DNA from: Planctomycetota bacterium | GTDB taxonomy: Bacteria > Planctomycetota > Phycisphaerae > SM23-33 > FEN-1343 | Assembly: GCA_013203365.1 (NCBI GenBank) | Contig: JABMQG010000027.1 | Location: 1-13,031, forward strand | Length of the DNA stretch: 13,031 nucleotides | Reading direction: 5' to 3' | Shown: piece after piece, positions 10,050-13,031 of the stretch | How positions within the stretch are numbered: the stretch's first letter is position 1 | How the letters are laid out: every line of letters starts with the position of its first letter | Notes under the pieces: model-generated | Told to the model about the DNA's origin: nothing | The model's input: only the letters and a program-made list of their open reading frames with translations | Databases searched by the model: none | Translations under genes and position numbers: made by a program

Positions 10050-10157
10050 CGGGACAAAAGTTCAAACAGGGTGCCCCTTCAATCAAGGTCGGCCGAAAGA
10101 CGTGTGTGCCATAGACGAAGATGCCTGGAGAGAATTGTATAAGGTTTCACGGGAATT
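10050..10157 (+). repeat. Left copy of an imperfect inverted repeat bounding the 2.7-kb island
   Basis: This copy matches, in reverse orientation, 12655-12745. The best blocks are CGGGAC (10050-10055), GTTCAAACAGGGT (10060-10072), CGGCC (10090-10094), GACGAAGATGCCTG (10114-10127), TAAGG (10139-10143) and GGAATT (10152-10157). By hand count about 69 of 91 aligned positions agree, with a single length difference: this copy has 17 extra bases (about 10073-10089), flanked by GGT at both ends. It begins 6 bases after the ruvX stop. Confidence 0.75.
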
Positions 10158-10209
10158 CCGAACTCCAAGGGGCAACCCGAACTCCTCGCTCGATGCGCTC
10201 GGGCGTAGT

Positions 10210-10224
10210 GTTCGCGTTGCGAAC
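10210..10224. repeat. Small perfect hairpin
   Basis: GTTCGC GTT GCGAAC forms a 6-base-pair stem with a 3-base loop. It is the first of four hairpins in the non-coding stretch downstream of the transposase remnant. Confidence 0.5.
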
Positions 10225-10267
10225 TGCCGCCATACCCTTGTGACGCTGCGAAGCGATCAGGATTCTT

Positions 10268-10284
10268 CGGCTCCAACGGAGCCG
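10268..10284. repeat. Perfect hairpin, REP-like
   Basis: CGGCTCC AAC GGAGCCG forms a 7-base-pair stem closed by a 3-base loop. No T tract follows on either strand, so it is not a standard terminator. Confidence 0.6.
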
Positions 10285-10294
10285 GGGAATGTAG

Positions 10295-10344
10295 CCACGA
10301 GTGAAGCAACGCCAGCCTGTCGGCAGGCGTCGCGCAACTCGTGG
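10295..10344. repeat. Long two-part hairpin, REP-like
   Basis: CCACGAGT (10295-10302) pairs perfectly with ACTCGTGG (10337-10344). Inside, GCCTG (10315-10319) pairs with CAGGC (10324-10328) around a TCGG loop, or alternatively ACGCC (10309-10313) with GGCGT (10326-10330). The nested design resembles short mobile palindromic elements. Confidence 0.6.
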
Positions 10345-10364
10345 ATATAGCTCATCTTATATTT

Positions 10365-10381
10365 CCGCCCCGGAGGGGCGG
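10365..10381. repeat. Perfect GC-rich hairpin next to the transposase remnant
   Basis: CCGCCCC GGA GGGGCGG forms a 7-base-pair stem with a 3-base loop, extendable by one T-A pair. It lies 25 bases beyond the stop of the IS200-type transposase remnant. Subterminal hairpins are normal at the ends of IS200/IS605 elements and in REP sequences mobilised by related transposases. Confidence 0.65.
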
Positions 10382-10406
10382 ATGAAACCCCGGAATGCGC
10401 GACAGA

Positions 10407-10721
10407 TCAATCGAACACATACCGCTCGTCGCTCTCGACGCCGTGGGCGTGGAGCATCCGCAGAAGTTCGGACTTGAAATCCTCCTTCTTGTGATGCTCG
10501 ATTTGTCCTTCGATGTACTTCTTCACGGCCTCTTCCTGGCTCTTGCTGACGGAGAACACGCTGTACCCCTCTTGCCACGCGAACGCGTCGAACTGCGGGA
10601 ACATGTCATACACCCACTTCGACGAGCGTGCCTTGACCGTGCGCATCAGGTCCGAGACATTGGCATCTGGCCGCCACCGCAGGTAAAGGTGGACGTGATC
10701 TTCGACGCCGCCGATGTCGTA
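10407..10721 (-). pseudogene. tnpA: IS200-type (Y1/HUH) transposase, C-terminal remnant
   Basis: The reading starts at about TAC 10721 with YDIGGVEDHVHLYLRW and ends RYVFD at a TGA (10409-10407). The HUH motif is present as HVH in EDHVHL, and the catalytic Tyr with its following Gln as KKYIEGQIEHHKK; the segment after it (FKSELLRMLHAHGV) is also family-typical. About 40-50 N-terminal residues that normally precede the HUH motif (the beta strand and early helices) are missing. Upstream in this frame is antisense-quality sequence that belongs, in another frame, to the DUF1156 fragment. The IS200 family makes single-stranded DNA cuts and joins at hairpin-marked ends. Although both catalytic motifs survive, the lost N terminus makes it unlikely to work. 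An accidental ATG at 10760 opens the frame. Confidence 0.8.
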
Positions 10722-10806
10722 TCGACTTCTCCCTGGCCGAGTGCTTGGACACCACGGCAATCGGAAAATCCACCTTATCCAGTCGTTTGCATTCCTTGGG
10801 AATCAT
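10714..10806 (-). pseudogene. 5' fragment of a DUF1156-type adenine DNA methylase (copy 2)
   Basis: From ATG 10806 the translation begins MIPKECKRLDKVDFPI and continues VVSKHSAREKSIRH. From memory this is the N terminus of DUF1156-containing, defence-associated adenine-specific DNA methylases, which continue with a GH-S-LH-WWARRPL block. Here the reading instead turns into an Arg-rich run at about 10713, where the transposase remnant begins in another frame. Only about 31 of several hundred expected codons remain, so no methylase is made. The ATG overlaps the stop of the preceding 298-aa gene (ATGA), showing that the methylase was once translated from the same message. The family assignment rests on a short stretch and should be treated as probable. 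Confidence 0.6.
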
Positions 10807-11699
10807 GTTTGCCCCACTCCAGCAGTCTGTTTATCAACTTCAAGAAGATCGGCCACTGCGGCGCGAACAACCTGCCAACAAATGCGGCAGGTATCCCCAT
10901 CGGGTCGGTCTCGTGAAATCCTTTGAACGTAAGGATGAACGATGTTACGCGATTCCCGCAACGCGTGGCTGAACCGTTTGACATCGCCCTGAAGCCAGCC
11001 CACTTCGTGGGCTACGTCAATCAACACGGACAGGCTCCAATCATGGATCGGCTTGACCGAACCTGTCTTGTCTCTTGGCGCTGCCTTCGCTTGGTTGGCG
11101 ATCTTCATGTTGTGCTCGACCTTGTGTAAAAGCACGCCTTCAAGGATGCTGCCCATCATGATTACGGCCGACAGGTGAGCATCCGCCCTGAAGCATCTCT
11201 GGGCTTCAGCCCACCGAAAGGTCAGAATGTCCGCAAGCGATGAATCTTGTACCAGACGTCCAAAGTCCGGCGGGGCTTCCACGGGTGTCTCTTTAGGTTT
11301 GGGCACGTTTGCCGTGGCCTTGCGTTCACGAATCTGCGGTTCAACGCCAACAACTGCGAGCTCAAGACCTTCGACTTGAAGTATCTGGTTCAAATGTTCA
11401 GTCACGGTCTGCGTCACCGTCGCATCGCCTCGGTACTCTTTTGGCGAAGCCAGGCGCTTCAAGACGCTGTCAAGATGGGGCGTTCCATTGATTGCTTGGA
11501 GCGATTCCAGCACAAACCATTTTCGGGTGGAAGACATGCCCTGGGATTGGATTCCTGCTCGTCGGAAGAAATCGCTTATCTGTGATTTGGTCCGGTAGGG
11601 GCTGGGAGAGGAGTACTTTGGCCCTCCGCCGGCCCCTTCGCCCGAACCGCAGATTGCCTCAGCAATCGCTTCAAGCGTGCTGTCGTCGAGGCGTTTCAT
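10803..11699 (-). CDS. AbiJ-like / HEPN-like candidate defence protein
   Basis: A 298-aa soluble protein without signal peptide or membrane segment. Residues 1-115 (MKRLDDSTLEAIAEAICG, then YRTKSQISDFFRRAG, KWFVLESLQAIN, VLKRLASPKEYRGD, HLNQILQVEGLEL) recall the N-terminal domains found in AbiJ abortive-infection proteins. Residues about 120-148 are a charged, Pro-rich linker. Residues about 155-290 are helical and carry a HEPN-like RNase signature, LRESRNIVHPY, with R248, R251, N252 and H255; WSLSVLIDVAHEVGWL (221-236) precedes it. HEPN proteins of this kind often act as RNases that halt infected cells; that role is inference here. ATG 11699 overlaps the stop of a 16-codon ORF that copies a methylase start. 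Its own stop overlaps the second methylase start. I am confident that it is a gene, less so of the function. Confidence 0.75.
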   Translation of the reverse strand: MKRLDDSTLEAIAEAICGSGEGAGGGPKYSSPSPYRTKSQISDFFRRAGIQSQGMSSTRKWFVLESLQAINGTPHLDSVLKRLASPKEYRGDATVTQTVTEHLNQILQVEGLELAVVGVEPQIRERKATANVPKPKETPVEAPPDFGRLVQDSSLADILTFRWAEAQRCFRADAHLSAVIMMGSILEGVLLHKVEHNMKIANQAKAAPRDKTGSVKPIHDWSLSVLIDVAHEVGWLQGDVKRFSHALRESRNIVHPYVQRISRDRPDGDTCRICWQVVRAAVADLLEVDKQTAGVGQT

Positions 11700-11746
11700 G
11701 TCTTGCCATCCACTTCAGCCAGTCGTATGCATTCCTTGGGGATCAC
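11696..11746 (-). pseudogene. 16-codon ORF copying the DUF1156 methylase start (copy 1)
   Basis: GTG 11746 opens VIPKECIRLAEVDGKT and stops at TGA 11698-11696, which overlaps the ATG of the next gene (ATGA). The first 13 codons match the start of the DUF1156 fragment at 10806 (MIPKECKRLDKVD) and the 39 bases 11746-11708 are a direct repeat of 10806-10768. A ribosome binding site, TAGGAA, lies about 8 bases upstream. It is either the stub of a methylase gene interrupted after codon 13, or a leader ORF that couples translation of the 298-aa gene to the gene before it. Confidence 0.55.
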
Positions 11747-11757
11747 GTATTCTGTTC

Positions 11758-12507
11758 CTAGCCGTCGGGGGGCGCTGAAGCACTGGGCTTTGTGGTGTTC
11801 ACGATGTCCCTTATGAACTGCATGACTCTGGGAGGAAGCAATAAAGCTCCCGTGGCATACTTAACGTCGAGCGTCTTGGCAACGAGCTTGCAGGCGAGTT
11901 GGTAGGCCATCCGGGCGTCGGCATCCACGTCTTGCCCTGCTGGATCAATCATGAAATGCAGGTACTGCCTTCTCAACGCGCGAAGCTTGCCAAACGCATG
12001 TATCATCTCCTCATCCAGAACCTCCAGGGCGCGCAGAATCCGGACGCGCTCCTCTTGCCCCAGCTTGTCGAATTCCCTTTCCAAGAGGAGCTTCTGGAGT
12101 TCCCCATCTAGCACGCGTCCATCAAGCTTCGGCTCCAGCATCCTGAATCGCCAAAGGGCGACCATTTCGCCCACCAGCCCGGCTTGCGCAATACAGGCCA
12201 CCGGCATTCCCAATACATAGCAGCATTTGGCCTCCCGAAGCGGCCGGATGACATGCGTCGTGATGACCGGATGGTCGGGGGAAACCACCGGTTCCACAGA
12301 GGGGTCGGTGACCTCCTTGTATCGACGATTGACCAGACCCATCGGGTCGTTCCGATCATTAAGGATGTCACCCAGCAGCGATTGGGCACGCTGGGCGTTG
12401 TTTGCCGCGCCTGGTTCCTCATTGAGTGATGGAATGATCAATGGTCCCAGGTACACCGGGATTCTCACAGCTCCGTTAATGCCAGTTTCCTGTTTCTTCG
12501 GAATCAC
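11758..12507 (-). CDS. Conserved-looking 249-aa protein with HEPN-like motif, function unknown
   Basis: I do not recognise the family. The protein is soluble, with an N-terminal part of mixed character (IPVYLGPLIIPSLNE at 16-30) and a mostly helical remainder. Residues 155-190 hold LRALEVLDEEMIHAFGK followed by LRALRRQYLHFM; here R179 and H184 fit the Rx4H pattern of HEPN RNases. That match is short and may be incidental. The tail from about 238 is Ser/Pro/Ala-rich. GTG 12507 overlaps the stop of the upstream ORF (GTGA), which supports the start and implies translational coupling. Eleven bases after its TAG comes the methylase-like mini-ORF. The position between a putative operon start and the AbiJ-like gene suggests a shared task, perhaps phage defence, but this is inference by association. 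Confidence 0.7.
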   Translation of the reverse strand: MIPKKQETGINGAVRIPVYLGPLIIPSLNEEPGAANNAQRAQSLLGDILNDRNDPMGLVNRRYKEVTDPSVEPVVSPDHPVITTHVIRPLREAKCCYVLGMPVACIAQAGLVGEMVALWRFRMLEPKLDGRVLDGELQKLLLEREFDKLGQEERVRILRALEVLDEEMIHAFGKLRALRRQYLHFMIDPAGQDVDADARMAYQLACKLVAKTLDVKYATGALLLPPRVMQFIRDIVNTTKPSASAPPDG

Positions 12508-12638
12508 GCCTTGGCCGCTTCCTTGAAGGTTCCTTCAAACCGCTTCCATGCTTTCTTGAACGCCGACTTGTGCTTGTTGGTAGAGTCGCGCCAGAACTTA
12601 GATAATCCTGAATAACCCGGATAACCCGGGACGGTCAC
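12504..12638 (-). pseudogene. Tail of a small or truncated gene upstream of the 249-aa protein
   Basis: An in-frame stretch of 44 codons after a TAG, ending FKEAAKA at TGA 12506-12504. The last 30 residues (KFWRDSTNKHKSAFKKAWK and onward) are basic, aromatic and look coding. The first dozen residues (VPGYPGYSGL) are encoded by short tandem repeats and do not look like natural protein. The TGA overlaps the GTG of the next gene by 4 bases, as in a real operon. I read it as the 3' remnant of a longer gene cut at the repeats, although a genuine 44-aa peptide cannot be excluded. Confidence 0.45.
12601..12630. repeat. Tandem imperfect 9-base repeats
   Basis: Reading the minus strand, units close to GGGTTATCC, GGGTTATTC and AGGATTATC follow one another without spacing. 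They sit where the coding-looking tail upstream of the 249-aa gene gives way to non-coding sequence, and so may mark a rearrangement point. Confidence 0.45.
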
Positions 12639-12654
12639 CTATTATTATGCTTGT

Positions 12655-12745
12655 AATTCCGGCGACGCCTTACCCTTTTTTCCACAGGCATCTTCGTCTC
12701 TCTCCCGCCCGTCTTCAGGCCGACCCTGTTTGAACGTCCGTCCCG
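12655..12745 (-). repeat. Right copy of the inverted repeat bounding the island
   Basis: The reverse complement of this segment aligns over its whole length to 10050-10157, without gaps except the 17 extra bases in the left copy. It carries the same ordered blocks: CGGGAC, GTTCAAACAGGGT, CGGCC, GACGAAGATGCCTG, TAAGG and GGAATT. The two copies point toward each other and enclose the tail ORF, the two unknown genes, both methylase fragments and the transposase remnant. Confidence 0.75.
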
Positions 12746-13031
12746 CTGCCTCGCGAACGTGAAAAACCTAGCAGATAATCATAGCCTCGCTAATCCTCGC
12801 GTCAATGATACCTTGTGTTACTCAACTTTGTCGGATAGCTGGGGGTATGGTCGAGCCCCTAAAAAAGGCCGCTCACCTGGCCGAAATGACCGCCTCTCAA
12901 CAGCCAATCCTCATTCAGCCACTCGCAATGCGGTTGCGATTTCACTTCTTCTCAGTCCTTTTCGCAACGGCTCATCTGTCCTAATCCCGCCTATCGACAC
13001 TCGGCCGACCATTCCGTAGCATGCTTGTGGG
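12746..13031. other. Non-coding stretch at the right edge
   Basis: I see no supported gene here. An 86-codon plus-strand frame (12759-13019) lacks a ribosome binding site and recognisable sequence. On the minus strand GGCC-N8-GGCC followed by six T (12882-12861) is a weak terminator-like structure for some transcript entering from the right. No tRNA-like fold was found by eye. Confidence 0.4.

Follow-up and report, generated by a model that had tools for sequence, protein, structure and literature searches.

The stretch of DNA considered here (the window) is the whole of contig C217, 13,031 bases long, from a Planctomycetota draft genome of 554 contigs, 2.59 Mb, and 82% completeness. Directly after the gene ruvX it carries a short island of accessory genes, and at each edge of this island lies a copy of a dispersed repeat that we call R, with the two copies in inverted orientation. 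The explanation that we favor, and hold to be fairly probable, is that these are two one-ended, promoter-bearing, low-copy repeats with TIRYT-like ends, whose tips face each other across a decayed accessory locus. On this explanation, these ends would not terminate a transposon that has the island as its body. Even when read in this plain way, the pair supplies a sequence definition of TIRYT-like ends that can be tested within one phylum, and accounts for the R family in a draft genome.

A dispersed repeat family with one recognizable end

A first-pass annotation of the window had described, by hand count, an inverted pair of about 91 bases at the edges of positions 10050..12745, with about 76% identity and one 17-base length difference, and global alignment returned the same figures: 10050-10158 shares 70 identical bases with the reverse complement of 12653-12745 over 92 aligned positions (76%), with a single 17-base gap. 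The pair had a local score of 55, whereas none of 300 mononucleotide shuffles scored above 28, and an inverted-repeat search recovered both arms (80 nt at 74% and 23 nt at 87%). The left copy of R (10050..10158, + strand) is defined by its alignment with the right copy and by matches at five other places in the genome. The right copy (12655..13031, − strand) is a long form. Its outer limit had been set at 12745, which proved too short, as other R copies align on to the contig end at 13031; it belongs to a sequence of ~400 bases common to contigs C137 and C233, at 86–87% identity over up to 392 bases.

Searches with the left arm and with 12640-13031 identified six R copies in the genome, namely the two in the window and one each on C233, C137, C271, and C336, of which those on C271 and C336 have a form without an inner stretch. 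Three further 14-base matches to the left arm are at chance level. All but one of the six copies reach the end of a contig or are situated close to one, as expected since repeats break assembly. R is a multi-copy family in this genome. A search of 59 relatives, which include no member of the same genus, did not find it, nor did a search of 396 further genomes of the class in which no more than two candidates were scored for each genome. There was no match to R in plasmids, its exact pattern had no match in viral contigs and a single one in GTDB contigs (Porphyromonas bennonis, judged to be chance), and the window had no Rfam match at gathering thresholds. Similarity among the copies stops at the tip motif, or a few to ~50 bases beyond it, in all six, and each of them terminates in a form of GGAGAATTGGGTAAGGTGTCACSGGAATTCC, which in the window lies on the accessory-gene side. 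Parts of the R body that have no tip motif were also observed on C269 (L049:4467-4534) and C143 (L050:1982-2009).

The first-pass annotation had left open whether the repeats bound a mobile unit or whether paired intergenic repeats had trapped a module, and had itself named dispersal of the repeats as telling against the former. Because R is dispersed in six copies, paired intergenic repeats fit better than a single mobile unit. R is best read as a lineage-specific, low-copy, non-autonomous dispersed repeat with one TIRYT-like end.

The long form of R also contains a promoter-like site, TTGACG-16-TATGAT (12778..12805, − strand), which reads toward the tip and the island and matches the consensus at 10 of 12 positions. 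Both hexamers are identical across all three long copies, and five promoter-like sites were observed where shuffled sequence gave a mean of 1.2. Long R copies may drive adjoining genes through a promoter-like site aimed out of the tip.

The tip motif and Y1 elements in the phylum

The left tip (10139..10157, + strand) differs from GTAWGGTGTCMCCSGAAYT by 3 mismatches and scores 14.8 on a weight matrix, and the right tip (12655..12673, − strand) differs by 2 and scores 21.3; both point into the island. The first-pass annotation knew of no named element with such ends, yet a likeness to named elements does exist: the inner tip matches, in degenerate form, the motif at the ends of the phylum's Y1 (TIRYT/TIRtron) elements. 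Allowing at most one mismatch, GTAWGGTGTCMCCSGAAYT occurs in 44 of 392 phylum genomes, this one included, and the control gave 0 among the matches listed. Its distribution is patchy; for example, in the class of genome G654 it was found in one of 29 genomes, G654 alone. The tip-motif pattern had no match in viral contigs. The weight matrix derives from 126 sites, spread over 109 loci of other genomes. These loci were fetched around places listed by the phylum motif scan, and four facing pairs there had been noticed beforehand. Across these 109 loci (912 kb) it found 168 sites scoring at least 14, and the reversed control had none at 10 or more. All six R tips, at 14.8 to 26.3, score above every reversed control in the 912 kb. 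In genome G533 the tip motif stands together with an R-like flank, gaattgg. A looser tip pattern gave 10 matches in the genome of the window against 2 in the reversed control, including sites on C271 and C171, and a related tip site on C336 was found by contig comparison. A palindromic hairpin was considered as the basis of the motif and rejected, given that the folds are weak and that the phylum form GGTGTCCCC disrupts the inner palindrome.

Elsewhere in the phylum, the motif is found at the ends of transposable elements. At one locus (L094, in genome G722) a complete element has two outward tips that enclose a Y1_Tnp gene (PF01797, E 3.8e-13), and PF01797 is the only Pfam match at E 0.001 or better at this locus and at L097. 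Among 23 outward pairs of at most 1.2 kb, a tblastn search with L094 found Y1 sequence in all 8 of at least 402 bp, one of which is the query element itself, and in none of the 15 of at most 281 bp. In the 109 loci, 122 of the 168 sites have no outward-pair partner, so that one-ended copies are the rule. The motif-bearing set thus consists of complete elements, miniature elements, and many solo ends. In the genome of the window, a standard outward pair of 0.3 kb on C171 encloses a Y1-like remnant, which links the tip to Y1 genes locally.

The GAATT tip points outward in complete elements, whereas both tips in the window point inward, and with these outer tips turned inward the island lies outside both R copies. 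The left copy begins 6 bases past the ruvX stop codon, which leaves no room for a complete element, and the right copy extends away from the island past the contig end at 13031. We propose that a Y1 transposase acting in trans would once have spread one-ended or miniature copies of R, probably through single-stranded DNA as in IS200-like elements (PMC6006769). The left copy would have been placed just after ruvX and the right copy beyond the accessory locus, which would have acquired a Y1 element, together with genes from what was probably a defense operon, before it decayed.

Several observations weigh against this explanation. A second, outer end of R was not found, nor was an autonomous relative with the R body. 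With 2 control matches against the 10 of the looser pattern, single weak sites may be chance. The window tips, with their 3 and 2 mismatches, have no GGGGWSAS core of the kind seen in the phylum, and we therefore class R as TIRYT-like, with membership unproven. In addition, site pairs 1–6 kb apart in the 109 loci face each other in 10 of 21 cases (8 are tandem and 3 outward), a share that solo insertions alone do not explain (P 0.02 against the 1/4 expected at random).

Facing pairs, defense cargo, and rival explanations

The first-pass annotation had proposed to look for copies of the repeat that border other cargo. Four facing pairs were found in the genome, with 2516 bases between motif starts in the window, 3049 on C271, 3724 on C336, and 1946 on C171, where the left site scores 13.7. 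The pair on C336 holds IetA (PADLOC, E 2e-70) and IetS (E 3.6e-26), that on C271 holds three open reading frames (ORFs) with no Pfam match above cut-off, and that on C171 holds a single ORF of 549 aa with a sub-threshold match only. After the solo R copy on C233 comes a YaaC-like gene. Adding the pairs of this genome to those of the other loci raises the facing share to 14 of 25 (P 0.0009), or 13 of 24 without the window pair (P 0.002), P values that are softened by ascertainment and by a 1/4 null that ignores neighboring complete elements, which always give facing gaps. Of the 10 facing pairs in other genomes, three (L178, L218, and L233) are flanked on at least one side by a complete element and the other 7 on neither; at L163 there is a weak partner site. 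As to cargo, a facing pair in G624 holds Mrr_cat and a NucS-like ORF, and one in G406 holds a Gp49/HTH toxin-antitoxin pair, and facing pairs with no defense match also occur (for example C171 and G497).

As a control for defense genes, the nearest ORF on each side of 118 solo sites was compared with PADLOC at E 1e-5, after six proteins also present in the tip-side list had been dropped from the body-side list (92 to 86). No tip-side enrichment was seen: matches were to 56 PADLOC families for the 100 tip-side proteins and to 97 for the 86 body-side proteins, in a comparison that counts families and not proteins. In the absence of a tip-side preference, a general claim of defense cargo at these tips is unsupported.

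Two other arrangements of tips were observed in the phylum. In G681 (L233:2516-8136, contig C115), four miniature elements of ~181 bp alternate with TumE, a TIR_2 fragment, and PIN groups, and a SMODS gene follows. Each of these elements carries, by eye, TTGACT-17-TAAGAT, to be compared with TTGACG-16-TATGAT in long R. In G654 (L150 and L151, on contigs C257 and C340), facing tips lie near reading frames that we take to be YD-repeat-like, with ORFs of no known kind between them. The G681 array and the pattern in the genome of the window may reflect elements gathering in variable regions.

A different explanation of such pairs is that facing TIRYT-like tips bound a small mobile cassette of accessory genes: a Y1 enzyme, or recombination between the repeats, would move it, and the repeat would contribute a promoter. 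We regard this as unlikely, yet several observations speak for it: four facing pairs of 1.9 to 3.7 kb in one genome (window 2.5 kb, C271 3.0 kb, C336 3.7 kb with IetAS, C171 1.9 kb), the nuclease and toxin-antitoxin pairs in G624 and G406, the G681 array, and the 7 of 10 pairs elsewhere that no complete element flanks. Against it stand the PADLOC control, with fewer families on the tip side (56 from 100 proteins) than on the body side (97 from 86), pairs such as those on C171 and in G497 that hold no defense gene, the facing gap that adjoining complete elements always leave, and the lack of any observed excision, duplication, or empty site. In its broadest form, the same idea would make inward TIRYT-type ends, many of them paired with an outward promoter, the mark of a class of small Planctomycetota defense cassettes (IetAS, Mrr-type nucleases, toxin-antitoxin), moved or exchanged through their tips by inside-out use of a Y1 enzyme or by repeat recombination, and would make the G681 array a chain of cassettes; this we consider doubtful, and a shade more so than the narrower version. 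If true, Y1 elements known mainly as repeats would be a vehicle and a promoter source for defense genes, and a 19-base motif could show where small defense modules begin and end.

Less probable again is that R belongs to the host as an intergenic regulatory repeat (terminator, promoter, and leader) copied by recombination, its likeness to TIRYT ends being due to chance. The promoter-like hexamers kept in the three long copies, the excess of such sites (5 against a shuffle mean of 1.2), and the parts of R that occur with no tip on C269 and C143 would suit a regulatory sequence, but all six copies lose similarity at the tip motif or a few to ~50 bases after it, and their tip scores exceed all reversed controls in the 912 kb. 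A further view of the window, and the first alternative of the first-pass annotation, takes the two arms for the terminal inverted repeats of a single, ordinary 2.7-kb transposon. It draws on the inverted, 76% identical arms around accessory genes, and we give it very little credence: the repeat is dispersed in six copies, exceeds 91 bases on the right with similarity continuing outward to 13031, and turns its tips inward, opposite to standard elements, and the sole transposase inside is a truncated Y1 remnant.

Comparison with known systems

As described in PMC3733652, TIRtrons are Y1 genes flanked by inverted repeats, some of which share GGGGWSAS, and the repeats occur singly, in dimers, and in groups. 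PMC6006769 places most TIRYTs in subclass 2.1 and gives a C-terminal helix-turn-helix as a trait of subclass 2.1 transposases. The elements of the phylum resemble both in having a Y1/HUH transposase gene of the IS200-like superfamily between terminal inverted repeats, in having ends that recur singly, in pairs, and in clusters, and in their motif, which read from the tip contains GGGGACAC, fitting GGGGWSAS. R differs from them in that both window tips deviate at the place of GGGGWSAS, and in being one-ended, with a promoter-like body of up to ~400 bp, no transposase, and tips turned inward around other genes. Among the listed results of literature searches, in a library where two papers mention TIRYT, there was no prior report of such facing pairs or of TIRtron defense cargo.

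REPs, BIMEs, and REPINs, with their RAYT transposases, are also short, dispersed, non-autonomous sequences tied to Y1 transposases. R is likewise dispersed, non-autonomous, and linked to Y1 transposases, but it is longer, has six copies, and bears no GTAG-type tag, and the palindromic 3′ stretch of the Y1 remnant in the window looks more REP-like than R does. An integron cassette array comes to mind for the G681 locus, where short repeats alternate with small toxin-antitoxin and defense genes, but the repeats there have inverted ends of the TIRYT type, inspection by eye showed no attC features, and an integrase was not searched for. Bacterial miniature inverted-repeat transposable elements (MITEs, defined in a part of PMC3733652) share with R the non-autonomous, dispersed character and the transposon-like end, and differ in that an inverted repeat between two ends of one R copy was not found.

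Content of the island and the ruvX neighborhood

The first-pass annotation had contrasted an accessory, decayed interior with the backbone to its left, and this contrast holds: a truncated Y1 transposase, a DUF1156-like fragment, and two accessory ORFs lie in the island, against serA, a nucleotidyltransferase/GMP gene, and ruvX among the genes to the left. Relatives of serA that carry a source name come from Planctomycetes, Planctomycetota, or Phycisphaerae bacteria. GC content falls from 0.60 in the sequence before 10044 to 0.56 across the island and 0.54 across the right repeat. The truncated IS200-like Y1 transposase remnant (10407..10760, − strand; PF01797, E 1.4e-17) covers profile positions 46-121 of 121, has lost its N-terminal side, and is the only PF01797 match of the genome. 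The end of this remnant plus a palindromic stretch (10286..10461, no strand assigned) is 88% identical to C233:2863-3035 and 78% over 92 bases to C336:3067-3158, and is thus seen on three R-bearing contigs (10286-10461, L011:2863-3035, and L013:3045-3165). Overlapping the remnant, an ORF at 10606..10806 (− strand) starts with a DUF1156-like N-terminal piece (PF06634, E 0.014, below the Pfam cut-off) and then runs into the Y1 remnant.

ORF2 (10803..11699, − strand, 298 aa) matches PF13643 (DUF4145) below cut-off (E 0.0024) and has 445 relatives, of which the best shows 88% identity and whose named sources include Pseudomonadota and Spirochaetia; within the phylum, relatives are found in 6 of 392 genomes, including this one. 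ORF2 is a widely transferred accessory protein. ORF3 (11758..12507, − strand, 249 aa), also accessory, has 102 relatives and no Pfam or PADLOC family. A 41-base direct repeat (10768-10808 and 11708-11748, 85% identical) holds ORF2 exactly between its copies, both of which read IPKEC-RL--VD, resembling the start of a DUF1156 protein. The island is an acquired, decayed accessory locus. PADLOC found no known defense system among the island ORFs; a role in defense is likely on account of the DUF1156-like piece.

At the left edge of the island, ruvX is present in 28 other genomes of the 29 searched, and 7 of these 28 share one downstream radical-SAM ORF, which we take to be HemW. The nearest family member has a different gene downstream of ruvX, and some contigs stop soon after it. 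No exact empty site at ruvX was found among the 28 ruvX-bearing genomes, and a search of the window's own genome gave only a weak match to the radical-SAM ORF, which says little at 82% completeness. A join of C217 to C233 across ruvX and fmt was considered and rejected, since fmt was not found near ruvX in relatives. Finally, C137 also carries a second repeat family (L010:5700-5960), sited at the very start of several contigs, with a translated FFCQTNPF string that resembles one in other planctomycete genomes.

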